Virus record (IMG/VR): IMGVR_UViG_3300032240_002260 | Span: 1-54,824 of that record | DNA: 54,824 bases | Origin: a virus | Reading direction: 5' to 3' (one strand) | In this document: piece after piece, positions 20,308 to 48,917 of the stretch | Position numbering within the stretch: the first letter of the stretch is position 1 | Layout: every line of letters begins with the position of its first letter | The notes under the pieces: model-generated | Database searches by the model: none | Told to the model about the DNA's origin: nothing | What the model saw: only the letters and a program-made list of their open reading frames with translations | Program-made: the position numbers and the translations under genes

Positions 20308-21669
20308 ATGACAAAAGCAGAAACTTATCAGGATTTAGAAGGTTATGATTTTACTGAAAAAGAAATTCTATCATTAGTACAAAAGTACATTGAAGAAAAA
20401 CATTACAAGAAAACTTGGAAAGCTGGAAAGGATTGGGTTCAATATGCTGGACCTTATTTTGATTCTAGAGAGTATGTAGCAGCAGTTAAAAGCTTATTGA
20501 GTGAGTGGTTAGTATTAGGAGCTGATGCTAATAAGTTTGAAACTAAGTTTCCTAAAAAGTTTGGAAAAGAGTATGGTCTATTAGTTAACTCTGGTTCTAG
20601 TGCTAATTTATTGATGCTACTTGCATTGACATCTAAAAGAGGTTTAAATTTACCTAAAGGCACAAAAGTAATTACTCCTATTGCAGGTTTTCCAACTACA
20701 ATTAATCCTATTCTTCAGATTGGATTTACTCCTGTATTTGTCGATATTGAATTACAAACTCTTAATCTTGATTTAGATCAAGTAGAACAAGCTTGTATAG
20801 ATAATCCTGATGTTAAGGTAATAACATTCGCTCACGTATTAGGAAACCCTCCAAACATGAATAGATTGATGGAGATCATTGAAAAATATAAACTAATACT
20901 ACTTGAAGATTGTTGTGATGCATTAGGATCATTTTATGAAGGTAAACCTCTTGGATCTTTTGGTGACTTGGCAAGTTGTTCATTCTATCCAGCTCACCAT
21001 ATGACTATAGGTGAAGGCGGATTTGTAGCATGTAAAGATGAAAACACAGAAAGGATTATAAGAAGTTTTAGAGAGTGGGGTCGTGGTTGTTATTGTATCG
21101 GTAAACAAAATCTATTAGAGAAAGGTTCATGTGGCTGTCGCTTTAATACATGGCTACCATCGCTACCTAATGATATATTTGATCACAAATATGTTTATGA
21201 AGAGATTGGTTATAATTTGAAACCTATTGAGCTTCAGGCATCAATTGGATTAGTTCAAATGGAGAAGTTAGAAGAGATAGGACAAAAGCGTAGAGACAAT
21301 TATAAAAATCTATTCTCCGCATTTAGTAAGTACAAGGAATATTTTCATTTACATGAAGCACAACCAGGAGCTGATGTTGATTGGTTTGCTTTCCCAGTAA
21401 CTGTTAAAGATGAAGCTCCTTTTAAACGTTCTGATATATGCCAATTCTTTGAATCAAATAAAGTTCAAACTAGACCTTACTTTGCAGGTAATATTATGCT
21501 TCAACCAGCCTATGAAGGACTTATGGATCCACAAGAAGTGATTACAAAATTTCCTGTAGCAAGAAAAGTTACAACAGATACATTCTTCTTAGGAACATCT
21601 CCAGTCATTAATAAAGAGAAGACAGACTACATTGAAACTATCTTGGATAAATTTATAAGCCAATTATGA
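20308..21669 (+). CDS. rfbH: RfbH/E1-type nucleotide-hexulose 3-dehydrase
   Basis: A 453-residue DegT/StrS-fold enzyme. At the position of the usual PLP-binding Lys it has H230 (SFYPAHH), the mark of the E1/ColD 3-dehydrases that remove the C3 hydroxyl from a nucleotide-4-keto-6-deoxyhexose. C203, C261, C263 and C275 match the four cysteines that hold the [2Fe-2S] cluster in E1. E1 enzymes need a reductase partner (E3), which is absent from the window. Product would be a 4-keto-3,6-dideoxyhexose, the acceptor for the ThDP enzyme at 30692. Confidence 0.9.
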   Translation: MTKAETYQDLEGYDFTEKEILSLVQKYIEEKHYKKTWKAGKDWVQYAGPYFDSREYVAAVKSLLSEWLVLGADANKFETKFPKKFGKEYGLLVNSGSSANLLMLLALTSKRGLNLPKGTKVITPIAGFPTTINPILQIGFTPVFVDIELQTLNLDLDQVEQACIDNPDVKVITFAHVLGNPPNMNRLMEIIEKYKLILLEDCCDALGSFYEGKPLGSFGDLASCSFYPAHHMTIGEGGFVACKDENTERIIRSFREWGRGCYCIGKQNLLEKGSCGCRFNTWLPSLPNDIFDHKYVYEEIGYNLKPIELQASIGLVQMEKLEEIGQKRRDNYKNLFSAFSKYKEYFHLHEAQPGADVDWFAFPVTVKDEAPFKRSDICQFFESNKVQTRPYFAGNIMLQPAYEGLMDPQEVITKFPVARKVTTDTFFLGTSPVINKEKTDYIETILDKFISQL

Positions 21670-22652
21670 AAATAGCTTTTATATCTGAAATGGGATTTGA
21701 AGGTAAAGTGCCTTCTAATCATCCTAATGCAAGAACAGAATTTTCTTGGATGAATGCTTTGGATGCAGACCATTATAATATTAGAAATATAGATAGAGTT
21801 GTTAATTACGATCATGTGTTTATAATCTTTCCTAAAGGAGAAGTATACTTAAATGCATTTGCTGTTAAATTATCGGATAAGCAAAATTCAGTATCAGACT
21901 TATTAAGATCTTCATTAGTAGATAAACTTAAATCATGTAATAGTAAAGTTCACTATGTACAAGAAGGTCCTCATTGGCTATTCAATGATTATGAGATCTA
22001 CGATCAAATATATTTTTATAACATGATAGCCAACTGTGATTCTATATTTGCTCATAATGAACATGATGCATTATATTACAAAGGAATGTTTCCAAATAAA
22101 CCTGTGAATGTTATTCCTACATTAATGATAGAAGATCTTATTAAAGATATAGTACCGACTAAAGAAAATAAGACTATCATAGGAGGTAACTTTGCAAGAT
22201 GGTATGGAGGATTTGAAAGTTACATGGTAGCAGATAACTTTGAAACAGAAATATGGGCACAAGAGTCACATGCTAAAAGAGTTGCAGAAGAAAAGGTGGA
22301 TTGTATAAAACACTTACCAAGACTTATATGGATAGACTGGATGAAAGCTTTATCAACATTTAAGTATGGAGTTCATCTAATGCCTACAGTTGCTGCAGGT
22401 ACATTTAGTCTTAACTGTGCATATTTTGGAATACCTTGTATAGGTAATAAAGATGTTGATACACAATCTATGTGCCATCCTTATTTATCTGTTGATGTCA
22501 ATGATATACAAAGAGCTAGAGAATTATCTCTTACTTTAAAAAATGATACATCATTTTATGAGGAATGTAGTTATATTGCAAAAAATAATTATAGACTTTA
22601 TTACAATATTGAAACCTGGAAAGATAATATTTTAAATATATTAAAAAAATAA
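21666..22652 (+). CDS. Probable GT-B glycosyltransferase
   Basis: A 328-residue protein without classic motifs. It has a Rossmann-like start (MKIAFISEMGFEG), a central IIGGNFARWYGG linker, and a C-terminal segment LMPTVAAGTFSLNCAYFGIPCIG (about 239-261) that looks like a GT-B donor site. Overlaps the rfbH-like gene by ATGA, so it is coupled to deoxysugar synthesis. Moderate confidence in the activity, high in the gene. Confidence 0.65.
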   Translation: MKIAFISEMGFEGKVPSNHPNARTEFSWMNALDADHYNIRNIDRVVNYDHVFIIFPKGEVYLNAFAVKLSDKQNSVSDLLRSSLVDKLKSCNSKVHYVQEGPHWLFNDYEIYDQIYFYNMIANCDSIFAHNEHDALYYKGMFPNKPVNVIPTLMIEDLIKDIVPTKENKTIIGGNFARWYGGFESYMVADNFETEIWAQESHAKRVAEEKVDCIKHLPRLIWIDWMKALSTFKYGVHLMPTVAAGTFSLNCAYFGIPCIGNKDVDTQSMCHPYLSVDVNDIQRARELSLTLKNDTSFYEECSYIAKNNYRLYYNIETWKDNILNILKK

Positions 22653-23459
22653 ATGGAACAATACGTATTTTTACATCCAACGCAACCTAATTCAGGATTG
22701 TTTGCTTTTATTTGGCAAACATTAAGAGGCATGTATCACTATCCTAATAACAAATATTATATATTATTTGGAAAAGAATGTTGTTATTTTGATGATGATA
22801 TATACTCCCAACAAGGAGTTGATAATGTATGGGAATATTATTTTGAGCAACCTCATATCCAGATCTTACCAGAAAAAAATCAGATTGTTAAAGAAGTAGG
22901 TTTATTATTTGATGAATTTAGTGAATTCAGAGATGTATTTTTAGATCCAGAAACTTATAAAATAAGAAGATCTGAATATAATAAAATTATAACTGAAAAT
23001 CTAAAATTGCTTCCTCACGTTTCTGAAAAATTAGAAGATTTTTACAATACTAATTTTGTAGGAAAAAAAGTTTTAGGATTACATATAAGAGGCACAGATC
23101 ATCCTGATAAATTACCAATGCATTTGTATGTTGAAAAAATTAAAAAACATATAAATGATTATGACGTCCTATTTGTTACTTCAGATGAACAAAGTAGAGT
23201 AGACTATATTAAAAATGAGTTTGGAGATAGAGTTTTATTGTATCCTACATTTAGAAGCCAAAATCAACAACCATTGCATTATCAAACTAGTCATAGTTAT
23301 AATAAGTATTTTGTTGGAGAAGAGGTTATAATTGAAGCTTATTTATTAGCTAGAACAAATTTCTTATTGTGCTGCTCAGGATCTAATGTAAACTTCTTTG
23401 TTAGGAGTTTAAACAAAGATTTAGGATACGAAATATTTTATACACCACCAATTCAATAA
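22653..23459 (+). CDS. Fucosyltransferase-like GT-B protein
   Basis: A 268-residue protein whose C-terminal half has LGLHIRGTDH (about 142-151), FVTSDEQSRVDYI (about 172-184) and EAYLLARTNFLLCCSGSNVN (about 228-247). This is the layout of NodZ-like and O-fucosyltransferases, which use GDP-fucose. Begins directly after the previous stop. From here to about 29.7 kb the DNA looks more A/T-rich by eye, hinting at separate acquisition. Confidence 0.72.
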   Translation: MEQYVFLHPTQPNSGLFAFIWQTLRGMYHYPNNKYYILFGKECCYFDDDIYSQQGVDNVWEYYFEQPHIQILPEKNQIVKEVGLLFDEFSEFRDVFLDPETYKIRRSEYNKIITENLKLLPHVSEKLEDFYNTNFVGKKVLGLHIRGTDHPDKLPMHLYVEKIKKHINDYDVLFVTSDEQSRVDYIKNEFGDRVLLYPTFRSQNQQPLHYQTSHSYNKYFVGEEVIIEAYLLARTNFLLCCSGSNVNFFVRSLNKDLGYEIFYTPPIQ

Positions 23460-23461
23460 AA

Positions 23462-24442
23462 ATGATACAAATAAATTTATTTTGTGGTAAAGATCAAACA
23501 GGTCATAGATCTACTATAACTAAAGCCGCATTAAATCAGTTAGCTAGTATATCTGAAAATAATAAAAGTCAAATAGATCTTTTAATATACCATGATGAGA
23601 ATGAAGAATCTTTATGGGAAGCTGAGGCTTATAAATTGGTACAAAAAAATATATCTACCACTTTAGTTAGTATGCCTAATAATGAATACATGGAAAAGCT
23701 TAAAATAGCTTTACAATCAGAGCATGAGTATTCATGCAAATGGGATAATGACGTGTTCGTAAATTCAGACATTTGGAATTATTTGATAGAGAATATAGAA
23801 GTTGTTAAAGATCCAAAAGTTTCTTTATTGGCACCAACCCTATCTAATGGAATGCCTACTATAGAATTATTTATAAAAGATTTTCTTACAGAAAAAGAAA
23901 AGGAAGTAGTTGGAAATATTTTTATCAAAGATAATATAGTAAAAGATATTTTTAGTTGCAATTATAATGAAATAATATCTTATATATCTGGCCTAAAAAG
24001 TTGGGATGGAGATAGATATTGGAAAGTTATGGATATGCATAATCCAATTATGGATAGACCTCATTTACCTTGGTATTATAGTATAGCTAAAGGGGTTCAT
24101 CCTGGTAGGTTTTCTTATGATTACAATAAATTTATTTTAGATCATGCTATTAATAATATTGATAAAGTTTTAAATAGCAGTAATTTATATTTAGAGCCAT
24201 ACATAACTCCATATTTTTGTAATAACATATTCCTAACTACAACAGAATATTGGAAAAGATCTCAAGAATTATTCTTTGATAATTGGGATGAGGGACAACT
24301 AACAATGTTGGCTAATAGAGAAAACAAATCCCCAGTATATGTAAGAAATTGTTATGGTATTCATATGGCTTATGGATGTACAAAAAATCAATTGGAAATA
24401 GAAAAAGATTATATTGATAATTTATTTAACAAATTAATATGA
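23462..24442 (+). CDS. Probable GT-A glycosyltransferase
   Basis: A 326-residue protein with a KWDNDVFVN motif (about residues 93-101), a DxD-like metal site, and LLIYHDENEES upstream of it. No close family recognised. Overlaps the next gene by ATGA and starts 2 nt after the fucosyltransferase-like gene. The shared operon supports a sugar-transfer role. Confidence 0.6.
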   Translation: MIQINLFCGKDQTGHRSTITKAALNQLASISENNKSQIDLLIYHDENEESLWEAEAYKLVQKNISTTLVSMPNNEYMEKLKIALQSEHEYSCKWDNDVFVNSDIWNYLIENIEVVKDPKVSLLAPTLSNGMPTIELFIKDFLTEKEKEVVGNIFIKDNIVKDIFSCNYNEIISYISGLKSWDGDRYWKVMDMHNPIMDRPHLPWYYSIAKGVHPGRFSYDYNKFILDHAINNIDKVLNSSNLYLEPYITPYFCNNIFLTTTEYWKRSQELFFDNWDEGQLTMLANRENKSPVYVRNCYGIHMAYGCTKNQLEIEKDYIDNLFNKLI

Positions 24443-25080
24443 TAGACCTATCAATGATAGATATAATTTCTATTAACTGTGTGAATCCAGAAGAGTCTGT
24501 AAAAGCATTATTGTACAGTACAGAAAAAATAAAATTTGGATCCATAAAATTATTCTCTCATGTAAAGCCAGAAAATTTACCAGATCACTTTGAATTTATA
24601 CAAACAGAAAAATTCACTCATGATACTATTAATTGGTTCGCTTTAAATACTCTTCCTAGATATATAAAAAACGATTATGTGTTATCAATTCATGATGACG
24701 GATTTATTTTAAATCCAAATAATTGGAAGAATGAATTTTTAGATTATGATTATATAGGGGCTCCATGGCCTGCATTACCGTGGTGTAATAGGAATCGAGT
24801 AGGTAATGGTGGATTTGTTCTTTACAGTAAAAAATTTTTAAATTATTGTTTAAGTATTCCAAAAACAACTAAACATAATGATGTAGTTATAACTAACGAG
24901 TATTATGATTTTTTTGTAAATAGTGGATGCAAATACGCACCATTAGAAGTTGCGTGTAAATTTTCTTTAGAAAATGAAATACCAGAATGCAAATTCGATC
25001 TTACAAAAACATTTGGATTTCATGGAAAATTAAATCATCAATCAATAAAGTCTATAGAATTATTAAAAAAATATAATTAA
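24439..25080 (+). CDS. DUF5672-type glycosyltransferase-like protein
   Basis: A 213-residue protein. HDDGF (about residues 93-97) acts as a DxD-like site, then DYIGAPWPA (about 111-119) and VGNGGFVLYSKK (about 127-138), the signature of DUF5672, a GT-A related family frequent in polysaccharide loci. M1 or M6 could start translation; the ATGA overlap favours M1. Confidence 0.72.
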   Translation: MIDLSMIDIISINCVNPEESVKALLYSTEKIKFGSIKLFSHVKPENLPDHFEFIQTEKFTHDTINWFALNTLPRYIKNDYVLSIHDDGFILNPNNWKNEFLDYDYIGAPWPALPWCNRNRVGNGGFVLYSKKFLNYCLSIPKTTKHNDVVITNEYYDFFVNSGCKYAPLEVACKFSLENEIPECKFDLTKTFGFHGKLNHQSIKSIELLKKYN

Positions 25081-25081
25081 T

Positions 25082-25927
25082 ATGAAAAATTTAAATGTTT
25101 TCGGAGCATCAGGTTTTATAGGAAGTAGATTCTGTGAAATAAATGCTGCCAATGTGGTTATTCAGGATAGGAATAATTATAAATCTCAAACAAATCAAAT
25201 ACTGTATTTTATTAGTACAGTAGATAATTACAATATACATAAAGATCTTCATTTAGATATCAATACAAATTTAAATGTATTAATGTCTGTATTAGAAAAT
25301 ATCAATAAAGAAGATAAAGACTTTGTATTTAATTTTGTAAGTTCTTGGTTTGTTTATGGAAAAAATGAAGTTCTTCCATTTAATGAAAAGTATTCAATTT
25401 GTAATCCTACAGGTTTTTATTCAATTACAAAAAGAGCAGCTGAGCAATTACTGATTAGTTTTTGTGAAACCTTTGGAATAAAATATAGAATCTTTAGATT
25501 ATCTAATGTTTTAGGAGAGGGAGATACGAAAATATCTAGAAAAAAGAATGCTTTACAACATATGATAAAATGTTTATGCGACAATGAAGAGATCTTTTTA
25601 TACGATGGAGGTAATGCAGTTAGAGATTACATATATGTTGATGATGTATGTAATGCTATTATGCATTGTTTATATAATGCTCCTGTTAATGAAATTATTA
25701 ACATAGGAAGTGGAAGAAGAACTTTACTTAGAGATCTTATTTATATTGCTCAAGATTTATCAAATTCTACTTCTAAAATAAATATTATACAACCTCCACA
25801 TTTTCATGATGTAGTCCAAGTAAAAGACTCGTATCTAGACATTACTAAATTAAAGTCTTATGGATTTGAATCTAAATATAAAGTAGAAGACGTGGTTGCT
25901 AAATTAGTTAATCACTATAAAAAATAA
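25082..25927 (+). CDS. SDR-family NAD-dependent epimerase/reductase
   Basis: A 281-residue extended SDR: GASGFIGS (8-15) binds NAD(P), YSITK (Y113, K117) is the catalytic pair, and DYIYVDD (about 183-189) is the conserved epimerase segment. Likely acts on a nucleotide sugar as a C4 epimerase or reductase, for example the final reduction of a branched or 3,6-dideoxy 4-ketosugar. Exact substrate cannot be read from sequence. Confidence 0.85.
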   Translation: MKNLNVFGASGFIGSRFCEINAANVVIQDRNNYKSQTNQILYFISTVDNYNIHKDLHLDINTNLNVLMSVLENINKEDKDFVFNFVSSWFVYGKNEVLPFNEKYSICNPTGFYSITKRAAEQLLISFCETFGIKYRIFRLSNVLGEGDTKISRKKNALQHMIKCLCDNEEIFLYDGGNAVRDYIYVDDVCNAIMHCLYNAPVNEIINIGSGRRTLLRDLIYIAQDLSNSTSKINIIQPPHFHDVVQVKDSYLDITKLKSYGFESKYKVEDVVAKLVNHYKK

Positions 25928-25940
25928 TTTTTTTATTCTA

Positions 25941-26774
25941 ATGAGTTTTATTACTTTTGATAAAATAGGAATATCTGGTAATTTAGGATCTCAAATACAA
26001 CAGTACGCTTGTTTGTTTGCTATTGCAAAAGAGACTAATAAAAAAATAGTGTTTTCTAAATCTAGTTTAAATCTAGGGTTTGGATTCAAATTTTCTAAAG
26101 CATTAAATGTAGATATCGAATTAGTAGACGATTCTATTATAACGAACTTCGTATCGTTATACCCAGAAGATATTTTATTTGATCAATCTGTATTTTATTT
26201 AGATCCTAATATGAATTATAATGTTACTAATTTACTACATTCATATCAATATTGGTATCCTAAATATAAAGACGAGATTATTAATTTTGCCTGGAATAGT
26301 GAATTATTAGAAGAGGCTAATAAAATAAAACAAGATCTATTACCTAAAGATAAAGAGCTAGTATCTTTACATGTAAGAAGAGGAGACTATCTATTTCCTG
26401 AACATCATCACTTCTGCCAATTAGATAATTCTTATTATGAAGAAGCGCTAAATGATTACATCTCAGAAATAGAAAAATATCACTTTGTTATTTTTTCGAA
26501 TGATATAGCATGGTGTAAAAATAATCTTATAGAAGGAGATATGGTTACATTTATAGATCCTAATTCTGATTACATTGATATGATCCTAATGAGTTTATGT
26601 GATCATAATATTATAGCAAATAGCAGCTTTAGTTGGTGGTCAGCATTTATGAATAAAAATCCTAATAAAAAAATAACAGCTCCTACTAATTATATAAAAA
26701 ACTATAGTAAGTTTAATTTTTTAAATAACAATTATCAAATTCCTGGATGGAAAAAAATATTAAATCAAGCATAG
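25941..26774 (+). CDS. GT11 alpha-1,2-fucosyltransferase-like enzyme
   Basis: A 277-residue GT-B enzyme with the GT11 blocks: GNLGSQIQQYACL (13-25), HVRRGDY (144-150) for GDP-fucose, FSNDIAWC, and a C-terminal SLCDHNIIANSSFSWWSAF (about 217-235). Family members add fucose in alpha-1,2 linkage to surface glycans. The gene overlaps the GT2-GT10 fusion by 28 nt. GDP-fucose synthesis genes are not in the window, so the host must provide it or they lie elsewhere. Confidence 0.88.
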   Translation: MSFITFDKIGISGNLGSQIQQYACLFAIAKETNKKIVFSKSSLNLGFGFKFSKALNVDIELVDDSIITNFVSLYPEDILFDQSVFYLDPNMNYNVTNLLHSYQYWYPKYKDEIINFAWNSELLEEANKIKQDLLPKDKELVSLHVRRGDYLFPEHHHFCQLDNSYYEEALNDYISEIEKYHFVIFSNDIAWCKNNLIEGDMVTFIDPNSDYIDMILMSLCDHNIIANSSFSWWSAFMNKNPNKKITAPTNYIKNYSKFNFLNNNYQIPGWKKILNQA

Positions 26775-28462
26775 AAAAACAAAATAGATTTAAAATTATA
26801 ACTCCTTCATATAATAATGAAGATTGGGTTGAATATAACTTAGCTAGTATTTTAAATCAGACTTATACTAACTATGAAGTTCTTTATGTAGATGATAAAT
26901 CCACAGATAATACATATAAAAAAGTATTAGATATAGTAGGTGACTTGCCTAATTGGAAAATTATTAGCAATGAAAATAATAAAGGCGCTCTTAGTAATTA
27001 CTTTGATAATTTATATTTCGTAGAAGACAATGATATATTAGTACATTTAGATGGCGATGATTGGTTTTATGATGAAAATGTTTTACAAAAGTTAAATGAT
27101 TTTTATAATAGAGAAGATTGCTGGATGACATACGGAGGTTTTTTAGTATTCGAAGGAGAAGATAAAATCCCAGGTGTACCATATCCTCAATCAACAGAAT
27201 ATTCAGATTTTATACATAAGCATAAAAAATATAGGCTGGATTTATGGAGGCCTTCTCATATGAGAACATATAGAGGATTCCTTATAAAAGCAGTTAATAG
27301 AAATGATCTTAAAGATTTAGTAGAAAACAAAGATTATTGGCATGCAAGTGATTTAGCATTTCAATATCCATGTTTAGAAATGTGTTCTAAAGATAAAATC
27401 AAAGTAATAGATTTTTATGCTCATGTTTATAATCAATCTAAGACCAATAAAGATAGAACTAGGGAGAGAGAATCTACAGATAATTCAAAATACGAATTTG
27501 AAATAAGGCAAAGAAAGCATTATACAGAAGGATTAACAGGAGATAAACTTCCCCAAATAAATGTATATCCTATAGATTATTATTCAGAAAGCCATAGCAT
27601 ACCTACAAAATTTACATACGTATATGGATTGTCTAAAGGGGAGTATGATATGACTATTCTATATGACAATTCAATAAATGATTATATAGAAGGGAAAATA
27701 ATTTTAGATCCTAATAAATTAGTAGTTGCATATCAATGTGAACAAAGATCATATTTTAAAAATAATATTTTTGAAAATATAAAAAATCATTACGATAAAT
27801 TTGATTACGTACTTACTTATGATAAAGAATTACTTTCTAGTATACCTAATGCTAAATTTTTACCATCTCAAATTCAAACAACCCAATTTAATAGATTGCC
27901 TAATCCAATGGGACAGCAACCATATTCACCTATATGTGGAGATACCTCATTTGAATTAACTCCTGAAATATTTAAAATCTATCCTAAAAGCAAAATAGTT
28001 TCAGCGGTAGCTTCAAATAAGTCATTTTTGCCCGGTCATGTAAAAAGATTAGAATTTATAAATTCAATTAGTAGTAAAGTAGATTTATTTGGTAGGGGAA
28101 CTAAAAAAGAAATTTTAACTAAATTAGATGCTTTAAAAGATTATATGTTTTCTGTAGCAATAGAAAATTCTAGTGAAGACGATTATTATTTTACAGAAAA
28201 AATAGTAGATTGTTTTTTAACCGGCACTGTTCCAATTTATTATGGATGTCCACATATTGCAGAATTTTTTGATATCAGAGGCATCATAACTTTCCAAAGC
28301 TCAGAAGAATTAATAGAGATCATTGATAATCTATCAGAAAATAAATACAATTCTATGCTTCCATATATAGAATATAATTACAATAAATGTTTTGAATGGC
28401 CTATTAATAATGATATGTTATATGACATGTATTATAAACCTATTTTAAATAAAGATATTTAA
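26747..28462 (+). CDS. Two-domain glycosyltransferase: GT2 fused to GT10-like fucosyltransferase
   Basis: A 571-residue fusion. Residues 15-240: GT-A domain with KIITPSYNNEDW, DDKSTDNTY and a DGDDW metal site (about 99-103). Residues about 310-560: GT10-type domain with FSVAIENSSEDDYYFTEKI (about 467-485) and FLTGTVPIYYG, the donor-site signature of alpha-1,3-fucosyltransferases. One polypeptide could add two successive sugars. The start overlaps the GT11 gene, and the early residues MEKNIKSSIEKQ are non-conserved. Confidence 0.85.
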   Translation: MEKNIKSSIEKQNRFKIITPSYNNEDWVEYNLASILNQTYTNYEVLYVDDKSTDNTYKKVLDIVGDLPNWKIISNENNKGALSNYFDNLYFVEDNDILVHLDGDDWFYDENVLQKLNDFYNREDCWMTYGGFLVFEGEDKIPGVPYPQSTEYSDFIHKHKKYRLDLWRPSHMRTYRGFLIKAVNRNDLKDLVENKDYWHASDLAFQYPCLEMCSKDKIKVIDFYAHVYNQSKTNKDRTRERESTDNSKYEFEIRQRKHYTEGLTGDKLPQINVYPIDYYSESHSIPTKFTYVYGLSKGEYDMTILYDNSINDYIEGKIILDPNKLVVAYQCEQRSYFKNNIFENIKNHYDKFDYVLTYDKELLSSIPNAKFLPSQIQTTQFNRLPNPMGQQPYSPICGDTSFELTPEIFKIYPKSKIVSAVASNKSFLPGHVKRLEFINSISSKVDLFGRGTKKEILTKLDALKDYMFSVAIENSSEDDYYFTEKIVDCFLTGTVPIYYGCPHIAEFFDIRGIITFQSSEELIEIIDNLSENKYNSMLPYIEYNYNKCFEWPINNDMLYDMYYKPILNKDI

Positions 28463-28486
28463 TTAACAAAAACAAATAAAGATAAT

Positions 28487-29161
28487 ATGAAAAATGTGAT
28501 GTTTATACATGCTGGTAATTTAATTGTAGATAAAAATGGAGTCGATAATAAAGATAGATGTCAAAATATAGTAAATGAAATAGCTGATTATATATTGGAA
28601 TCTAAGATATACGAAGACTTAGAATTTATAAGTTTAGAGTTATTAGGAGATCCAAATATTAATTTTAATGTTCCCAAAGGAGTTATTAATTATAATGGAG
28701 CAAATGTCCATCAGTGGGAATTTCCAACTCTAAGAAAAATAATAGAGTATTCTAAATCAAATCCAGAAGATAATATTTTATATGTCCACACAAAAGGATC
28801 GAGTAATAATATAGGAGTTGCTGAATTTAAATGGATAGAAGATGTAAGAAATTATCAATTGTATTTTAATATACTTCAATACAAGGATAGTTTAGAATAT
28901 CTTAAAGAATATGATTGCTGCGGTGTTGAATTGATAGATGACCCAGTTAAACATTATTCCCAAAATTTTTGGTGGGCAAAAGCAAGTCATATAAACACAT
29001 TAGAAAATCCAGAAACAATGCCTCCTGTTTTTGATTATAGGCATAATTGTGAATTTTGGGTATGTTCTAATCCTAACTCTAAATATAAAAGTAAATTTAA
29101 TCTATATAATCATTATATTGATGCACATGATTTTTCAAAACACTTATATACAAAAAAATAA
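28487..29161 (+). CDS. Glycosyltransferase-like protein
   Basis: A 224-residue protein with ILYVHTKGSSN (about residues 96-106) and WIEDVRNYQLYFNI (about 116-129), a pattern seen in GT-like proteins of bacterial polysaccharide loci and large viruses. The C-terminus has FWWAKASHI and a cluster of aromatic residues. A 24-nt A-rich spacer precedes it. Activity not assigned. Confidence 0.6.
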   Translation: MKNVMFIHAGNLIVDKNGVDNKDRCQNIVNEIADYILESKIYEDLEFISLELLGDPNINFNVPKGVINYNGANVHQWEFPTLRKIIEYSKSNPEDNILYVHTKGSSNNIGVAEFKWIEDVRNYQLYFNILQYKDSLEYLKEYDCCGVELIDDPVKHYSQNFWWAKASHINTLENPETMPPVFDYRHNCEFWVCSNPNSKYKSKFNLYNHYIDAHDFSKHLYTKK

Positions 29162-29164
29162 ATT

Positions 29165-29740
29165 ATGAACTACTCTCAATTAAATCAAGACCTTTGGATA
29201 TTATCTAAATTTGATAAAGATTTTAAAGGCTTTTTTGTAGACGTCGGAGCTAATGATGGGATCACAATTAATAATAGTTATCTTTTAGAGCAAAACGGAT
29301 GGAATGGAGTTTGTATAGAACCTAATATACATGAATTTAATAAGTTGAATGAATCTAGAAAATCCAATAACTATCAAGTATGTATTTCAGATTTTAATGG
29401 AAAATGCTATTTTGAAGAGAATGGATTTTTTGGAAAAATATTAGGAAAAAATGCTGGTAATACTGATTGTTTCACCTTAGAATATTTTTTAGATAATATA
29501 GACGCTCCTAAAATTATAGACTACCTATCTATTGATGTTGAAGGAGGTGAATATGATATTATAAAAGACTTTCCATTTGAAAAATATTTTATCAAATATA
29601 TTACAATTGAGCATAATGCTTATGGACATAATTTTGCTTTAAAAAATAATATATACTCTGTACTTTCCAACTATTTTAATATAGAAAAAGAAAATGTAGA
29701 AGGATTTGAAGATTGGTACGTAAATAAAAAAATAATATAA
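29165..29740 (+). CDS. FkbM-family methyltransferase
   Basis: A 191-residue SAM-dependent methyltransferase: FVDVGANDG (24-32, SAM motif I), IEPN (51-54), and YLSIDVEGGEYDII (about 121-134). FkbM enzymes O-methylate sugars or polyketides. In this setting it probably methylates a hydroxyl of the glycan. It follows by 3 nt and precedes the dehydratase by 1 nt. Confidence 0.88.
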   Translation: MNYSQLNQDLWILSKFDKDFKGFFVDVGANDGITINNSYLLEQNGWNGVCIEPNIHEFNKLNESRKSNNYQVCISDFNGKCYFEENGFFGKILGKNAGNTDCFTLEYFLDNIDAPKIIDYLSIDVEGGEYDIIKDFPFEKYFIKYITIEHNAYGHNFALKNNIYSVLSNYFNIEKENVEGFEDWYVNKKII

Positions 29741-29741
29741 T

Positions 29742-30698
29742 ATGACAAAAGTAGTATATGTAACAGGATGTTTAGGACTTATTGGAAGTCATATAACAAG
29801 AGAGTGTTTAGAAAAAGGTTGGTACGTTATGGGAGTAGACGCAGTGACTTATGCTGCAAATACAGACTTATTAGTTGAGTTTACTAAATATGATAATTTT
29901 TCATTTTTAGGAGATGATATTAATAATCTTAAATTTATACATGAGTGTGATTACATTATCAACACCGCAGCAGAAACACACGTAGGCAATTCAATCGCTA
30001 ATTCAGATAAGTTCGTTACTTCTAATATTAATGGAGTCCATACTATTCTTGAACTACTAAGAAATTACAGACAGGAGACAACTAAGGTTCCTATACTACT
30101 TCACTTTTCAACAGATGAAGTATATGGAGACATAGAAGATGGTGCGCATACAGAGAAAGATTTACTTAAACCGTCTAATCCATATTCAGCAACTAAAGCT
30201 GCAGCAGATCAATTAATACTAGCATGGGGTAGGACATACAAAATTCCTTATGTTATAGTAAGACCAACTAATAATTATGGAGTAGGTCAATATGTAGAAA
30301 AGCTTATACCTAAAACATGTAAGTATCTTACTCTTGAAAGAAAGGTACCACTTCATAATGGAGGATCTCCTATTCGTAATTGGCTACATGCTGGAGATAC
30401 TGCTAAAGCTATAGTAACTATAATAGAGTCTGGAGTTCAAAATGAAATATTCAATATTGCTGGTGGATATGAGCAAACAAATTTAGACACTGTAAAGAAA
30501 GTTATAAATAATTACACTGGATTTGATACATTTGATATAAATGATTATATAGATACAGATTATTCCAGACCAGGTCAAGATGTAAGATACGCATTAGATG
30601 ATAACAAACTTAGAAGTCTTGGTTGGGAACCTACAAAAGTATTTGATATAGAAATAAAAAAGATTGTCGAGTATTATAAAAATAAGTTTATATGGTAA
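29742..30698 (+). CDS. Nucleotide-sugar 4,6-dehydratase (RmlB type)
   Basis: A 318-residue extended SDR: GCLGLIGS (9-16), catalytic T124-D125-E126 in STDEVYGD, Y148 and K152, and RPTNNYG followed by EKLIP. The TDE triad is that of dTDP-glucose 4,6-dehydratases; CDP-glucose dehydratases (RfbG) usually read differently. Product: a nucleotide-4-keto-6-deoxyglucose, the substrate for the RfbH-type enzyme at 20308. It overlaps the ThDP enzyme gene by 7 nt, placing it at the head of a five-gene biosynthetic block. Confidence 0.88.
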   Translation: MTKVVYVTGCLGLIGSHITRECLEKGWYVMGVDAVTYAANTDLLVEFTKYDNFSFLGDDINNLKFIHECDYIINTAAETHVGNSIANSDKFVTSNINGVHTILELLRNYRQETTKVPILLHFSTDEVYGDIEDGAHTEKDLLKPSNPYSATKAAADQLILAWGRTYKIPYVIVRPTNNYGVGQYVEKLIPKTCKYLTLERKVPLHNGGSPIRNWLHAGDTAKAIVTIIESGVQNEIFNIAGGYEQTNLDTVKKVINNYTGFDTFDINDYIDTDYSRPGQDVRYALDDNKLRSLGWEPTKVFDIEIKKIVEYYKNKFIW

Positions 30699-32473
30699 AA
30701 GTAAGTGATCTTATTGCCGAATTTTTAAAAGTAAAAAAAATTGATACTGTATTCGGTATTATAGGATCTGCTAATTCACATATTTTTGATTCAATACACA
30801 AATTAGGATATACAAAAATAATTAATACACATCACGAACAAGCAGCTGTAATGGCAATGGGTGCATACTATAGAGCATCAGGTAAATTGTCTGCGGCTAT
30901 TGTTACGGCTGGAGGCGGTGTGACAAATGCAGTAACTGGTGTAGTAAGTAATTGGGCAGACTCAATCCCAGGTATTATCATATCAGGCCAAGAGAATTAT
31001 AACTATGTTAGTACTCAAGAAGATCTAAGAATGTATGGAACTCAAGGTCTTAATATAACTAAGATGCTGAGTGATGTTACAAAGAAAGCAGTAGCATTTG
31101 ATAATGATATGGATATTCAAACTGTTTTAGAAATTTTAGATCATACAACAACTGTAGGTAGGCCAGGACCTGTTTGGTTAGATGTTCCAATGAATCTACA
31201 AGCTAAGATGGTAGAGAGAAGAGATTGGAAATTTATTGAACCTATTACAATAGAAACTGATATAGAATTAATTGTAGATGAGATTAACAAATCTAAAAGA
31301 CCTGTTATAGTAGGTGGTAATGGCATAAGATTATCAGGAGCCAAAAAAGAATTCAATGATCTATTAAACTATCTTAGAATACCAACACTACTTACATGGT
31401 CAGGTATAGATTTATTAGAAGACACTAATCCAAACTTTTTTGGTAGATTTGGTTTATATGGTCAAAGAGCTGCAAACTTTATTGTACAAAATGCAGATCT
31501 AGTAATTGTATTGGGAAGTAGATTGGCACTACCACAAGTTGGATATGACTTTAGTCAATTTGCAAGAGGTGCAAAGATTATTGTTGTTGATATAGATGAA
31601 CTCGAAGGAACTAAATATCCAGTAGAATTTGTTTGGGGAGATTGTAAGACAGTTATAAACAAACTAATTCAATCTTCTTATATGACATGGGGATATAAAG
31701 AAGAGTGGGTTAATCATTGTAATGAACTAAAGACTAAATATCCTTTAGTAGAAGAAGCTCATAAAGATAATGGATATCTGAACTCATATAAATTTATAAC
31801 TAAATTATCTGATCATCTAAAAGATAATCACGTTATAGTTACAGATATGGGAACTGCACTACTTAGTGGCCATCAAAATATAAAGTTAAAGAAAGATCAA
31901 GTAATGTTTACATCTCAAGGTCTTGGTGAAATGGGATATGGTCTTCCTGGTGCATTAGGCGCTGCTGCAGCTTGTCCTGATAAACCTATCTTGTGTATGA
32001 ATTGCGATGGTGGTATTATGATGAATCTACAAGAACTTCACACTATAATTGAAAATGGATTTGATAATGTTAAAATCATTATATTCAATAACGATGGTTA
32101 TTTGATGATTAAGCATACACAAAAAATGTTATTCAAAGGAGACTATGTTAGTGTAGATAAGAAAACAGGTATTGGATTACCTGATTTTAGTAAATTAATG
32201 CCTGCGTTTGGATACAATTATTATGGATTAAAGAAATGGGATGATTTTGACATGGTAGTAAATGCCTTCATAAACAGTAATAAAGCCACAGTACTAGAGG
32301 TGTTTATGGATCCAGAGCAAGATTTCATTCCTAAAGTAAAAGGAGTTCTTAAAGAAGATCTAACTATCATGGCTCCACCTATTGAAGAGATGTCTCCTCT
32401 ATTACCATTTGAAACTGTACAAAAAGAAATGATAGTAGATATTAGTGAAAAATCTAAACTAATTAAAAGATGA
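30692..32473 (+). CDS. ThDP-dependent enzyme, acetolactate synthase/YerE-like
   Basis: A 593-residue ThDP enzyme in three domains: Pyr (1-165) with catalytic E49 in THHEQAAVM, a central domain (about 185-320), and the PP domain (about 370-560) with NCDGGIMMNLQEL and NND binding Mg-ThDP. Close relatives include acetolactate synthases and YerE, which adds a two-carbon unit from pyruvate to a 4-keto-3,6-dideoxysugar. Between a 4,6-dehydratase and an aldolase/dehydrogenase pair, sugar branching is more likely than amino-acid synthesis. Substrate is inferred, not shown. Confidence 0.82.
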   Translation: MVKVSDLIAEFLKVKKIDTVFGIIGSANSHIFDSIHKLGYTKIINTHHEQAAVMAMGAYYRASGKLSAAIVTAGGGVTNAVTGVVSNWADSIPGIIISGQENYNYVSTQEDLRMYGTQGLNITKMLSDVTKKAVAFDNDMDIQTVLEILDHTTTVGRPGPVWLDVPMNLQAKMVERRDWKFIEPITIETDIELIVDEINKSKRPVIVGGNGIRLSGAKKEFNDLLNYLRIPTLLTWSGIDLLEDTNPNFFGRFGLYGQRAANFIVQNADLVIVLGSRLALPQVGYDFSQFARGAKIIVVDIDELEGTKYPVEFVWGDCKTVINKLIQSSYMTWGYKEEWVNHCNELKTKYPLVEEAHKDNGYLNSYKFITKLSDHLKDNHVIVTDMGTALLSGHQNIKLKKDQVMFTSQGLGEMGYGLPGALGAAAACPDKPILCMNCDGGIMMNLQELHTIIENGFDNVKIIIFNNDGYLMIKHTQKMLFKGDYVSVDKKTGIGLPDFSKLMPAFGYNYYGLKKWDDFDMVVNAFINSNKATVLEVFMDPEQDFIPKVKGVLKEDLTIMAPPIEEMSPLLPFETVQKEMIVDISEKSKLIKR

Positions 32474-33318
32474 TTAAAGCAGGAATTATAGGAACAGGTA
32501 ACATTGGTACTGATCTATTATTGAAAATACTGAAGACAAAAGAAATAAAACCTGTTATATTTGCAGGACGTAGAATGAATTCTGATGGTATATCAATTGC
32601 TAAAAGTAAAGGAGTAGAAGTAACAGATAAAGGCATTCAATATTTTATAGAAAATCCTAAATGTTGTGATGTAGTATTTGATTGTACTAGTGCAGCTGAT
32701 GCTATTAAACATGCATCTATATTTGAAGAACAAGGAATTAAAGTAGTGGATCTAACTCCTGCAAAAGTAGGACCTTTGTGTGTACCTAGTATTAATCCAG
32801 AAGTTATATTGACTGAAGGTAATGTTAATATGATCACATGTGGTGGACAAGCTTCTATGCCTATGTTGAATCTAATATCAAAATATTGTGATGGTTTAGA
32901 TTATATAGAGATCGTATCTCAAATTGCATCTAAGAGTGCAGGTATGGCAACTAGAATTAATATTGATTCTTATATTGACACAACAGAAAAAGCTATAAAG
33001 AAATTTACTGGCTGTGATAATTGTAAAGTGATATTGAATCTAAATCCTGCCGAACCTTGTGTTGATATGCAGACTACGATGTTTATTAAATTTAAATCAA
33101 TAAACTTTAATAGTTTAGTAGGAGAGATTTATAAGAAAGTAAAAGAACTTCAAACCTATATTCCATACTATGAATTAGTATTGCCTCCAGTAATCAATGA
33201 TGACATACTAGTTCTAAGTATTAAAGTAAAAGGAACTGGAGATTATCTTCCAGAGTATGCTGGTAATTTGGACATCATTAACTGTGCGGCAATTGAAATA
33301 ACTAAAACATTATTCTAA
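32470..33318 (+). CDS. Acylating acetaldehyde dehydrogenase (MhpF/DmpF type)
   Basis: A 282-residue enzyme interconverting acetaldehyde and acetyl-CoA with NAD. N-terminal GIIGTGNIGTD (6-16) binds NAD; TCGGQA carries the catalytic C124. Family partners are the 4-hydroxy-2-oxovalerate aldolases, and the next gene is one, sharing a base at 33318. Slightly shorter than typical (about 300-315). In a glycan operon the pair may make or use a 2-oxoacid for the ThDP enzyme. Confidence 0.9.
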   Translation: MIKAGIIGTGNIGTDLLLKILKTKEIKPVIFAGRRMNSDGISIAKSKGVEVTDKGIQYFIENPKCCDVVFDCTSAADAIKHASIFEEQGIKVVDLTPAKVGPLCVPSINPEVILTEGNVNMITCGGQASMPMLNLISKYCDGLDYIEIVSQIASKSAGMATRINIDSYIDTTEKAIKKFTGCDNCKVILNLNPAEPCVDMQTTMFIKFKSINFNSLVGEIYKKVKELQTYIPYYELVLPPVINDDILVLSIKVKGTGDYLPEYAGNLDIINCAAIEITKTLF

Positions 33319-34316
33319 TGCATAAAATTACAATAACAGATTCATCTTTAAGAGATGGTAATCACGCAGTAAAGCATACAATAAATCTTGATCAAATAAA
33401 AAGATACTGTCAATTTGCTGATAGCGCAAAGATTCCTATTGTTGAAGTAGGACATGGTAATGGTTTAGGAGCATCATCATTATTGATTGGACAATCTCCA
33501 TATTCTGATAGAGAGATCTTGAGTGTAGCTAGAGAGAATCTTAAAACATCTAAATTAGGAATTCATATTATTCCAGGAATTGCAACAGTAAAAAAAGATA
33601 TTGAACCTGCAATTGATTTAGGTGTAGATGTATTTAGAATCGCTACTCATTGTACAGAAGCAACACTATCTAAATCACATATAGAGTATCTAAAGAGTAA
33701 AGACAAAACTGTACTAGGTGTATTGATGATGAGTGCGCTGGCAGATATTAAAACATTAGTAGAGAATGCAAAGATTATGGAAGAGTATGGAGCTGAAGCA
33801 GTAATCATAATGGATTCAACAGGAACTTATCTACCTTCTGATGTATATGAAAGGATTGGTGCTCTTAAAGACAATTTAAAAATAGATATAGGTTTTCATG
33901 CTCATGATAATTTAGGTTTAGCTACAGCAAATTCATTGGCCGCAGTTGTAGAAGGAGCCACATATATTGATGCATGCATTAGAGGGTTTGGTGCCGGTGC
34001 TGGTAATGCACATTTAGAAATGCTTATACCTGTTTTAGAAAAGAGTGGATATGAAATAGGAATAGACTTTCAAAAAGTTATTATTGAAGCAGATAAAGTT
34101 ATGGACTATCTGGTACCTAATGCTCCTGTATCTACACCTGTCAATGTATTAACAGGACTTAATAGATTATTCTCAGGATTCGAGAAGCCTATTATCAAAG
34201 CATCTAAATTATATGGCATAGAATATTCATCATTAATCTTTGAACTTGGAAATAGAAAGTTAGTTGCTGGTCAAGAAGATCTTATATTAGAAGTAGCTCA
34301 AAAGTTGAAGAAATGA
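33318..34316 (+). CDS. 4-hydroxy-2-oxovalerate aldolase (MhpE/DmpG type)
   Basis: A 332-residue HMGL-like TIM-barrel aldolase: SSLRDGNHA (R12, D13), HAHDNLGL with metal-binding H194 and H196, and RGFGAGAGNAHLE (about 222-234). It cleaves or forms 4-hydroxy-2-oxovalerate from pyruvate and acetaldehyde. It is coupled to its usual partner dehydrogenase; the DmpG/DmpF pair normally channels acetaldehyde through a complex. Run in reverse it could provide a C5 2-oxoacid donor for the ThDP enzyme. Confidence 0.92.
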   Translation: MHKITITDSSLRDGNHAVKHTINLDQIKRYCQFADSAKIPIVEVGHGNGLGASSLLIGQSPYSDREILSVARENLKTSKLGIHIIPGIATVKKDIEPAIDLGVDVFRIATHCTEATLSKSHIEYLKSKDKTVLGVLMMSALADIKTLVENAKIMEEYGAEAVIIMDSTGTYLPSDVYERIGALKDNLKIDIGFHAHDNLGLATANSLAAVVEGATYIDACIRGFGAGAGNAHLEMLIPVLEKSGYEIGIDFQKVIIEADKVMDYLVPNAPVSTPVNVLTGLNRLFSGFEKPIIKASKLYGIEYSSLIFELGNRKLVAGQEDLILEVAQKLKK

Positions 34317-35089
34317 AAATACTAATTACAGGTGCAAATGGATATATAGGTAAGTCTTTATATAATGCTTTAAAAGATAAGCACGAAGTTGCAATTATTA
34401 ATAGACAAAAATGTGATCTAACAAATTCAGAAGATGTTCACTTCTATTTTTTAGATGCTTGGGTCGATGTTGTAATTCATTGCGCAGTAGCAGGAGGTCA
34501 TAGATTAAAGAATGATGAATGGAAAGTAATGGATGAGAACTTAATGATGTACTATAATTTACTACAAAATAAAAAACACTTTGGTAAGTTAATACATTTT
34601 GGTTCAGGAGCAGAGATATATAAATCAGAAGAACCTTATGGATTCAGTAAGTCTGCAATAAGGAATTCTATTTTAGTAAATGATAACTTTTACAATCTTA
34701 GAATTTATGGAGTGTTTGATGAGAATGAATTAGATACTAGGTTTATAAAAGCAAATATCAAACGGTATATCAATAAAGAACCACTATCTATATATGAAAA
34801 TAAGTACATGGACTTTATTTATATGCCTGATTTAGTTTCTGTTGTTGACTATTATATTAAAGAAACAAATCCTCCAAAAGAAACAGAATGTAGGTATAAA
34901 GGGTTTAGTAATTTAAGATCAATAGCAGAAGAAATAAATACACTATCTGATTATAGAGTACCTATTTATATAACACAAGAATACGGTGGATCTTATATTG
35001 GAACAGAGTTTCCTATTGACTTAAAATACATAGGACTAGAACAAGGAATTAAAAACGTCTATAAATCATTATTAAATGAAGCAAATTAG
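34313..35089 (+). CDS. SDR-family NAD-dependent sugar epimerase/reductase
   Basis: A 258-residue extended SDR with GANGYIGKS (7-15) and YGFSK (about 115-119, the Y-x3-K pair), and DFIYMPDL for the substrate domain. Shorter than RmlD/GalE. Overlaps the aldolase gene by ATGA and the next glycosyltransferase by 14 nt. Likely the last step on the branched sugar, for example reduction of the side-chain ketone as YerF does. Confidence 0.82.
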   Translation: MKILITGANGYIGKSLYNALKDKHEVAIINRQKCDLTNSEDVHFYFLDAWVDVVIHCAVAGGHRLKNDEWKVMDENLMMYYNLLQNKKHFGKLIHFGSGAEIYKSEEPYGFSKSAIRNSILVNDNFYNLRIYGVFDENELDTRFIKANIKRYINKEPLSIYENKYMDFIYMPDLVSVVDYYIKETNPPKETECRYKGFSNLRSIAEEINTLSDYRVPIYITQEYGGSYIGTEFPIDLKYIGLEQGIKNVYKSLLNEAN

Positions 35090-36359
35090 TTTTGTAATAA
35101 ACACATCAGTTAATACTAGAGATCACATAGAGCTATTGATTAGATCTCTAAAAGAGAACCTATCAGGAAAAGAGCATGAGATACTTGTATTTGTAGATTC
35201 AGATAATGAAGGAACTACAGAGTGGCTTAAAGAACAGAAGAAAGACTTTTATGATCTAAAAATAATAACTCATAAACTTAAACCATGCGTAGGTTACGCA
35301 AGAAACAATAACCTATTAGTTGAGTTAGCAAAACATGACATAATTTCTTATCTACAGTCTGATATGGTGATAGGTCCTAACTACGATCTACATCTATTAA
35401 ATCAAATAGAAGATAATGCAATCATATCTGCTACTAGAGTTGAACCACCACTTCATGGATTTTCAGACTACACAATAGCAAAAAACTTTGGTACTGATCC
35501 TACTGTATTTAATATGGCAGAGTGGAATCAATATTCAGAATCGGTAAGATCTAATAGAGCAGCGACTTATTTCTTTGCCCCAATTACATTCTATAAAAAA
35601 GTATGGGAAGATCTTGGAGGATATGATACTATCTTTAGAAGATCTAGAGAAGATTCTGACTTTCTTCAAAGAGCAATTCAAAAAGGAGTAAAGCTTATTC
35701 AAACATGGGAAGCAAATGTATATCATTTCACCTGTGTATCATCTAGAGGAAAGAATTGGTTTGATAGTCGTAATGAAAAAGCAAAGAAGAGAACAGAGAT
35801 CCAACAAGTTGCTGATGGAGTTGAGTTAAGGAGGTTTATCAGGAAGTGGGGTAACTTTAATCACGGAGAGTCTAAGTTAAGTAAACTAGACATGGACTTC
35901 GTAGTTGATGAAAATACTAACCTCTCAGTAGATCTATTAGTTCATATTGAGCCTTACTTCTCAAGAATGTGGTTCAAGACTCAAGAGCAAAAAGATACTG
36001 CAATTAAGATGTTCTCTAATGAACATGATCTAGCAAATGAATTATTAGGATTCACAAAAGAAGATTGGGAACTTGCCAAAAAGTATTACAACTTGACTGA
36101 TTATGATTCGATATATAAAGTAGGAGAGCCTCAAGATTTTAATATTAAAGTAACCGCTGAGTTTGGTAAGATGTATGCAGGAAATGATTTATTCCTTCAA
36201 TACCTGACGCGCCTGGGTGATGTTATAGAACCTTATGAACCAGGAATATATGAATTAGGATCAGCTAAAATAGAGGTCAGGAATGTGATCAGCCTAGTTC
36301 AGGATCAAATTAAGGTACAAAATCCACCATTCGATATGTCATTATTAACAATAGAGTAA
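35076..36359 (+). CDS. GT2-family glycosyltransferase with extended C-terminus
   Basis: A 427-residue GT-A enzyme: SFVINTSVNTRDHIE, VFVDSDNEGT (DSD at about 41-43), a second acidic site QSDMVIG (about 94-100), and GGYDTIFRRSREDSDF (about 183-198) near the catalytic base. A C-terminal domain of about 170 residues is Asp/Leu-rich and unrecognised. Last gene of the sugar island; a 22-nt spacer follows. Confidence 0.82.
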   Translation: MKQISFVINTSVNTRDHIELLIRSLKENLSGKEHEILVFVDSDNEGTTEWLKEQKKDFYDLKIITHKLKPCVGYARNNNLLVELAKHDIISYLQSDMVIGPNYDLHLLNQIEDNAIISATRVEPPLHGFSDYTIAKNFGTDPTVFNMAEWNQYSESVRSNRAATYFFAPITFYKKVWEDLGGYDTIFRRSREDSDFLQRAIQKGVKLIQTWEANVYHFTCVSSRGKNWFDSRNEKAKKRTEIQQVADGVELRRFIRKWGNFNHGESKLSKLDMDFVVDENTNLSVDLLVHIEPYFSRMWFKTQEQKDTAIKMFSNEHDLANELLGFTKEDWELAKKYYNLTDYDSIYKVGEPQDFNIKVTAEFGKMYAGNDLFLQYLTRLGDVIEPYEPGIYELGSAKIEVRNVISLVQDQIKVQNPPFDMSLLTIE

Positions 36360-36381: not shown

Positions 36382-36693
36382 ATGGAAGCAGTTAATCCTA
36401 TATTTAATATAACCGTAGCAGGAAAAAAATTCAAACTTCAATTCGATGTTAACTCTAACCCAACTAAAAAAGGAGTTAAACTTCAATTCATACTAGATGA
36501 AGAGTTCGAAGATCCTAGAGACAAACAAATGTTGGCTAATCAAATTAGTGTAGTACTTCAAAAAAGACTTGGAGCATCTGGAATTATGGTAGACTACGAT
36601 GATAGAAATCCGTATCGCAACGTGATCGGATTCATAGTTCCTCTAAACTCAGTAGCTACTATGATTATCAAAGCAATGAAAAATCCGGAATAA
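36382..36693 (+). CDS. Conserved phage hypothetical protein
   Basis: A 103-residue beta-rich protein (FNITVAGKKFKLQFDVNSNPTKKGVKLQF...) ending in an amphipathic helix. I recall similar proteins in T4-like phages, without function. Starts a set of four small phage genes after the sugar island. Confidence 0.65.
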   Translation: MEAVNPIFNITVAGKKFKLQFDVNSNPTKKGVKLQFILDEEFEDPRDKQMLANQISVVLQKRLGASGIMVDYDDRNPYRNVIGFIVPLNSVATMIIKAMKNPE

Positions 36694-48110: not shown

Positions 48111-48119
48111 AATCATTAT

Positions 48120-48326: not shown

Positions 48327-48336
48327 AAAATAAAGT

Positions 48337-48833: not shown

Positions 48834-48856
48834 TAATAAAGTAAAAAGTGAAGTAA

Positions 48857-48888: not shown

Positions 48889-48917
48889 TATAATATTATT
48901 TGATCAATTAATAAGGT

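Follow-up and report, generated by a model that had tools for sequence, protein, structure and literature searches.

A probable phage-borne pathway to an erwiniose-type branched dideoxy sugar in a T4-type phage of Bacteroidota

The IMG/VR virus record IMGVR_UViG_3300032240_002260 (54,824 bases, 31% G+C), analyzed over its full length and referred to here as the window, carries a cassette of sugar biosynthesis and glycosyltransferase genes between conserved phage genes (Table 1). An earlier note on this DNA had named within it an RmlB-type dehydratase, an RfbH/E1 3-dehydrase, a thiamine diphosphate (ThDP)-dependent enzyme resembling YerE, an acetylating acetaldehyde dehydrogenase (AcDH), a 4-hydroxy-2-oxovalerate aldolase and two short-chain dehydrogenases/reductases (SDRs). 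Our computational analyses located all of these genes, including the SDRs beginning at 25082 and 34313, and found them intact and with the expected active-site residues. Consecutive stop/start overlaps had been claimed for four genes; we measured a run of six overlapping genes (RmlB-like, ThDP, AcDH, aldolase, SDR and glycosyltransferase), with overlaps of 7, 4, 1, 4 and 14 nt at the successive junctions.

The best PDB match of the ThDP enzyme was 8rph (552 bits), compared with 228 bits for the Pseudomonas YerE, PpYerE (5ahk), and no more than 222 bits for acetolactate synthases. Foldseek aligned its AlphaFold model (predicted local distance difference test score of 87.6) with 8rph, the structure of JanthE from Janthinobacterium sp. 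HH01, at a template modeling score of 0.93, well ahead of acetohydroxyacid synthases. JanthE is also its closest solved relative by identity (43–45%, versus 28% for PpYerE and 27–31% for acetolactate synthases), and the score of the window enzyme against the acetolactate synthase model TIGR00118 (322 bits) was below the curated cutoff of 538. In a maximum-likelihood tree, 54 viral ThDP sequences and one from a Flavobacteriaceae metagenome-assembled genome (MAG) formed one group, which was joined to the JanthE group with support of 100/100, while PpYerE and the acetolactate synthases fell outside. The model and the tree indicate that the ThDP enzyme is a YerE-like, putatively ketone-branching member of the JanthE subgroup rather than an acetolactate synthase of housekeeping metabolism. 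Its placement with JanthE and sugar-cluster homologues, apart from the housekeeping enzymes, bears out the YerE-like assignment of the earlier note.

The window enzyme has Glu49 and, at 438, the rare CDG motif of JanthE, described as special to that enzyme. Four of the five JanthE pocket residues are kept (Y268, P293, Y297 and K567), the fifth, V121, being Thr in the window enzyme. The CDG motif was present in all aligned viral ThDP sequences save those of three loci, L040, L042 and L049. This motif was considered as a marker of the donor and rejected, since bacterial members with a GDG motif also adjoin AcDH and aldolase genes. JanthE takes 4-hydroxy-2-oxovalerate and also pyruvate, although its physiological substrate is not known (PMC12188165). 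ErwE of Pectobacterium atrosepticum, which we liken to the phage enzyme by its described activity and not by sequence, couples hydroxy-2-oxo acids of C4 to C6 to cytidine diphosphate (CDP)-4-keto-3,6-dideoxyglucose, giving erwiniose, and rejects pyruvate (PMC12247030). YerE, of the Yersinia yersiniose A pathway, shares the family and the chemistry, being a ketone-accepting ThDP ligase that acts on a 4-keto-3,6-dideoxy sugar, but it belongs to another clade, has the GDG motif and uses pyruvate as its paradigm donor, with donors limited to C3 (PMC12247030).

The two genes that follow the ThDP gene encode proteins above the curated cutoffs for AcDH (TIGR03215, 323 bits, cutoff 282; catalytic Cys124 present) and 4-hydroxy-2-oxovalerate aldolase (TIGR03217, 337 bits, cutoff 286), the latter with the DmpG_comm domain, the catalytic R, D and H residues and the metal-binding His pair all kept. 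Among 71 sugar-cluster aldolases, both viral and bacterial, His replaced Leu88 (DmpG numbering) in all but one, and Tyr291 was kept in none, being replaced by Phe or, in three, by Met. Leu and Tyr were kept in nine of nine typical aldolases from random gammaproteobacterial genomes, which served as catabolic controls; only two control aldolases had His/Phe and both were beside a ThDP gene. The window aldolase, with His and Phe at these positions, falls outside the catabolic subgroup. In the aldolase BphI, the Y290F substitution abolished stereocontrol and the L87N/Y290F variant was (4R)-specific (PMC3962088); these variants, taken with the His/Phe signature, suggest that the product of the phage aldolase is (4R) or stereochemically relaxed.

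In L040, L042 and L049 the RmlB-like and ThDP genes were kept, but the place of the AcDH-aldolase pair was taken by two proteins of the HpcH/HpaI family, of which one is HpaI-like. Thus, wherever a group offers enough sequence to judge, a pyruvate-type aldolase goes with the ThDP gene. This alternative module, located after the ThDP gene (L042, 11764–14745; L049, 11655–14636; L040, 11779–15475), also encodes a small HAD-like protein and an LdpA-like one that has two 4Fe-4S motifs, to which L040 adds a flavin reductase. The earlier note had suggested that the ThDP enzyme could attach a longer, hydroxylated side chain, and this is supported by the use of 4-hydroxy-2-oxo acids by ErwE and JanthE (PMC12247030, PMC12188165), by the locking of the aldolase/AcDH pair to the ThDP gene and, as far as the sequences suggest, by the other pyruvate-type aldolase that stands in where the pair is missing.

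The RfbH protein scored 466 bits against PRK15407, above the NCBIfam cutoff of 423. Its His230 aligned with the catalytic His220 of E1 (PDB 3bcx), a position occupied by Lys in PDB 3bb8 of the same enzyme, and Cys261, Cys263, Cys275 and Cys277 represent the four [2Fe-2S] cysteines, although the spacing of the third is unlike that of E1. Because it has these four cysteines, and His where aminotransferases have Lys, the protein is RfbH/E1-like, as had been claimed, and not an ordinary aminotransferase. RfbH with at least 51% identity was found in 27 of 42 viral records, and 11 others had a 380-residue, ColD-like relative with the same-place His and no Fe-S cysteines, so that a His-type C3-dehydratase was present in 38 of the 42. 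Neither type was found in the remaining four, whose contigs end shortly upstream of the cluster. The shorter relative, a DegT protein with His for Lys that is nearest to E1 and ColD, stands in place of RfbH in L012 (4597–5739) and its relatives. As substitutes for E3, the reductase partner of E1, we considered the LdpA-like ferredoxin and the flavin reductase found among L040, L042 and L049 and rejected them; the association was poor, the reductase of L040 occurring together with the Fe-S-free dehydratase. The RmlB-like dehydratase, whose PDB match was 2hun, keeps the catalytic motifs TDE (124–126) and YxxxK (148–152).

Linkage of these genes was assessed over 44 distinct full-length viral ThDP loci, 43 of them besides the window. 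In 39 of the 44 an RmlB-like gene lay within 1 kb upstream of the ThDP gene, and in 37 the next gene downstream was AcDH. In an independent search seeded with the aldolase, each of the 32 loci that no contig end interrupts had ThDP and AcDH upstream. The dehydratase-ThDP-AcDH-aldolase set, for which the earlier note had proposed a neighborhood search, is therefore a recurrent one, and in L039 the RfbH, RmlB-like, ThDP, AcDH, aldolase and SDR genes are contiguous. Four small contigs (L022, L023, L026 and L044) are arranged differently: their aldolase gene is on the opposite strand, and AcDH, if there is one, precedes the ThDP gene. The ratios of non-synonymous to synonymous substitution (dN/dS) were about 0.06–0.15 for the RmlB-like, ThDP, AcDH and aldolase genes and close RfbH relatives, with dS near saturation, and 0.17–0.38 for the SDR, for which synonymous sites were also near saturation. 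Such purifying selection argues that the gene set is not a chance assembly.

Bacterial counterparts of the cassette were found in L061 (Flavobacteriaceae) and L066 (strain KB13). Like the erwiniose pathway, they combine a YerE-like ThDP ligase with C3 deoxygenation of the RfbH type, as does the phage, and they share with it the AcDH-aldolase pair and its His/Phe signature. These loci differ in having curated genes for the CDP-glucose enzymes RfbF and RfbG nearby, whereas neither was found in any of the viral loci searched, which have the RmlB-like dehydratase instead. Synechococcus phages S-H68 and S-B43 also encode an RfbH-type 3-dehydratase (42% identity); no ThDP branch module was detected in their records in our search of deposited phages.

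The window is collinear with Flavobacterium phage immuto (NC_055915) on both flanks of the cassette. On the left, identities were 38–63% over a PD-(D/E)XK nuclease, two glycosyltransferases, a small protein and a GT2 gene, and the right flank shares an HNH endonuclease. Immuto has a glycan cassette in the same slot but with WecE-type transaminases between the flanks, where the window has the branched-sugar gene set; that stretch of immuto has no annotated relative of ThDP or AcDH, and when phage records were searched with the ThDP enzyme and the aldolase, none emerged from immuto. The same flanks with other contents point to a swappable glycan cassette. A gene for the T4-type capsid protein Gp23 was identified in seven of eight related viral records of more than 130 kb, one of which has a gp23 57% identical to that of immuto; gp23 is not in the window itself. 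A cyanophage host was rejected, as psbA was in none of 26 viral records and gp23 was closest to that of a Flavobacterium phage. Type IX secretion is a system known from Bacteroidota. A 741-residue protein of the window (48918–51143, + strand) carries a signal-like stretch at its N terminus and, at its C terminus, a type IX secretion sorting domain (PF18962, 39 bits against a cutoff of 27); it is apparently meant for export by that system, in agreement with a Bacteroidota host. By its synteny and its relatives, the window is a fragment of a T4-type phage of Bacteroidota. It also contains a complete transfer-messenger RNA gene (10839–11234, + strand; ARAGORN; Rfam RF00023, 78.5 bits, cutoff 47) and two thymidylate synthase homologues on the + strand (378–1016 and 4201–5280), one short and divergent and the other long with an insertion. 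One of the two may be a pyrimidine hydroxymethylase that serves DNA modification, a possibility relevant to the destination of the sugar.

Table 1. Genes of the cassette and its flanks, with positions in the window.
Gene product	Coordinates	Strand	Matches and residues
PD-(D/E)XK nuclease, left flank	14936..15838	+	PF12705, 68 bits; 43% to immuto 48008-48949
Glycosyltransferase (480 residues), conserved left flank	16128..17570	+	PF00534; phrog_2170; 63% to immuto 49172-50614
Glycosyltransferase (434 residues), conserved left flank	17572..18876	+	phrog_2170; 58% to immuto
GT2 glycosyltransferase, last gene with clear left synteny to immuto	19709..20305	+	PF00535; 54% to immuto
RfbH/E1-type nucleoside diphosphate (NDP)-4-keto-6-deoxyhexose 3-dehydratase, putative removal of the C3 hydroxyl	20308..21669	+	PRK15407; PDB 3bcx; His230, Cys261/263/275/277
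328-residue protein	21666..22652	+	No Pfam/PHROG match; 60-81% homologues in related viral cassettes
268-residue protein	22653..23459	+	No Pfam/PHROG match; homologues in L024, L028, L038, L056
326-residue protein	23462..24442	+	No Pfam/PHROG match; homologues in L024, L028, L036, L038
DUF5672 protein	24439..25080	+	PF18922
SDR (NAD-dependent epimerase/dehydratase family)	25082..25927	+	PF01370; close homologues in some relatives only
GT11-family glycosyltransferase	25941..26774	+	PF01531
GT2 + GT10 two-domain glycosyltransferase	26747..28462	+	PF00535, PF00852
224-residue protein	28487..29161	+	No family match; 65% homologue in L038
FkbM-type methyltransferase	29165..29740	+	PF05050
RmlB-like NDP-glucose 4,6-dehydratase, phage-specific clade; putative 4-keto-6-deoxy sugar product	29742..30698	+	TIGR01181; PDB 2hun
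ThDP-dependent YerE-like (JanthE group) putative C-C ligase	30692..32473	+	Three Pfam TPP domains; PDB 8rph; Foldseek; tree
AcDH	32470..33318	+	TIGR03215; Cys124 in NMITCGGQA
4-Hydroxy-2-oxovalerate aldolase, sugar-cluster subgroup	33318..34316	+	TIGR03217; DmpG_comm; His83/Phe285
RmlD-like SDR, candidate branch ketoreductase by position	34313..35089	+	PF01370/PF04321; after aldolase in most viral loci
GT2-domain glycosyltransferase, right flank	35076..36359	+	PF00535; 28% to immuto 58717-59988
Small conserved protein, right flank	36382..36693	+	29% to immuto 60009-60353
HNH endonuclease, right flank	37455..38207	+	phrog_10822; 35% to immuto 61395-62060

Based on these observations, we think it likely that the cassette encodes a phage-borne pathway to an erwiniose-type C4-branched 3,6-dideoxyhexose. 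In the pathway that we infer (its reactions, donor, stereochemistry, nucleotide, reductase role and attachment site alike), the RmlB-like enzyme would convert host-supplied NDP-glucose, for which host deoxythymidine diphosphate (dTDP)-glucose is the simplest guess, to NDP-4-keto-6-deoxyglucose, and RfbH would remove the C3 hydroxyl to give NDP-4-keto-3,6-dideoxyglucose, drawing its electrons from ferredoxin or flavin reductases of the host. AcDH, presumably running from acetyl-coenzyme A (CoA) to acetaldehyde, would hand this product to the aldolase, which would join it to pyruvate to form 4-hydroxy-2-oxovalerate, possibly (4R). The JanthE-like ThDP enzyme would then decarboxylate 4-hydroxy-2-oxovalerate and transfer the resulting 3-hydroxybutanoyl unit, of four carbons, to the C4 ketone, which would become a tertiary alcohol. 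Reduction of the branch ketone, probably by the SDR at 34313, would give a 1,3-dihydroxybutyl branch and a sugar of ten carbons in total, which the phage glycosyltransferases would attach, probably decorating the virus or the host. Erwiniose is 3,6,8-trideoxy-4-C-(1-hydroxyethyl)octose, that is, a 3,6-dideoxyhexose with a 1,3-dihydroxybutyl branch, and the gene set would predict exactly this structure.

Several observations weigh against this reading. In this phage RfbH lies 8 kb upstream of the other pathway genes, with glycosyltransferases between. The RmlB-like protein scored 289 bits against TIGR01181, below the cutoff of 365, making it dTDP-glucose dehydratase-like and not a curated member. 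The RmlB-type dehydratase of the earlier note stands as regards the gene and its catalytic residues, and the protein belongs to a phage-specific clade. Its nucleotide-pocket residues are altered (PLHN at 203, RPGQD at 276), and viral members with those columns have PLHN for the PIYG, and RxGQD (or RxGMD) for the RPGHD, of dTDP enzymes. As the note had said, the window lacks a nucleotidyltransferase (no PF00483 match there; matches in five of 26 viral records were mostly within long reading frames) and an E3-type 2Fe-2S domain (PF00111), and no Fer2 domain was found in the 26 viral records. The missing E3, however, need not count as an anomaly, because the bacterial loci examined also show none nearby and SpnQ works with generic reductases, showing that enzymes of this type can do without it (PMC8987622). 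In addition, the BphI precedent at residue 87 is Asn or Trp, not His; in one viral group (L027–L039 and others) the JanthE pocket is altered (I/Q/L) and the aldolase pair is the same; and the bacterial clade L073–L088 pairs AcDH-aldolase with a GDG-motif ThDP enzyme.

Some of these differences bear on the details of the sugar. It is unlikely, in our judgment, that the product is of the same branched kind with another donor or acceptor, such as a different aldehyde and hence branch length, another nucleotide, or a C3 that is not deoxygenated. The C4 to C6 range of ErwE (PMC12247030), the altered RmlB-like residues, the three viral ThDP pocket types and the two C3-dehydratase types would all allow for this, but AcDH points to an acyl-CoA-derived aldehyde, most simply acetaldehyde, and the viral records almost never lack a C3-dehydratase of the His type. 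A yersiniose-type sugar, with a two-carbon branch from pyruvate and AcDH and the aldolase serving another purpose, for instance acetaldehyde handling, seems to us quite improbable. Although JanthE accepts pyruvate too (PMC12188165) and pyruvate is the YerE paradigm (PMC12247030), relatives of the phage aldolase were found only behind ThDP genes in the aldolase-seeded search, the AcDH and aldolase genes belong to the overlapping run of the ThDP gene, the aldolase signature was absent from typical catabolic controls, and other aldolases replace the pair when it is lost.

Readings outside glycan synthesis appear very remote. The cassette might raise host carbon flux as auxiliary metabolism, through acetolactate and branched-chain amino acid synthesis or acetaldehyde/pyruvate catabolism, as a generic acetolactate synthase annotation would imply and as the listing of K01666 as an amino-acid auxiliary metabolic gene in a virome paper might suggest (PMC13303688). 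Against this, the ThDP enzyme is only 27–31% identical to acetolactate synthases and outside their clade, the set lies among glycosyltransferases with RfbH and the RmlB-like gene, and the aldolase lacks the catabolic residues. Equally hard to credit is that the DNA is misfiled bacterial sequence or a decaying passenger. IMG/VR records can be contaminated, most of those considered here are fragments, and the four small contigs differ in layout; but Gp23 in most of the large records, synteny with the cultured phage immuto, low dN/dS, a viral ThDP group of its own apart from the one MAG, and the presence of the cassette in only one of 397 Flavobacteriaceae genomes all speak against this origin.

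The erwiniose-type pathway, which we continue to prefer, has no phage-borne version that we found in the literature, although phage genomes deposited without comment could hold one. Searches of 50,697 deposited phages returned for the ThDP enzyme only acetolactate-synthase-like matches of up to about 35% identity, largely in bacterial-looking records, and for the aldolase a single catabolic-type protein, 35% identical and encoded on a Salmonella contig; neither AcDH nor the aldolase is represented by a PHROGs family. With no close relative among deposited phages and no such family, the phage version looks undescribed, though the related bacterial enzymes are well described. The earlier note had called the sugar type unfamiliar from any phage, which holds for phages as far as these searches reached; the chemistry itself is already present in biology, in the erwiniose of Pectobacterium, and had so far been described from the surfaces of bacterial cells only. 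What is novel here is the phage location, the dehydratase swap and the interchangeable donor module, and the kind of pathway is already known.

Viruses have been considered an unexplored source by reviewers of ketone-branching ThDP enzymes (PMC12247030), and the loci described here provide a defined viral ThDP clade whose neighbors name the likely donor. The comparison of L040, L042 and L049 with the other viral relatives represents a natural donor-swap experiment, and the His/Phe signature offers a simple sequence rule for separating biosynthetic from catabolic 4-hydroxy-2-oxovalerate aldolases, one that predicts stereochemistry. We speculate, with some doubt, that T4-type phages of Bacteroidota may have put a phage-specific dehydratase in place of RfbF/RfbG, may swap the aldolase module (the AcDH-aldolase or the HpaI pair) to change the branch, and may place the ten-carbon sugar on virions, DNA or the host surface, where it would serve as a variable label that is difficult to copy. 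If the proposed pathway is real, phage glycan cassettes would be able to add carbon skeletons, beyond rearranging common sugars.

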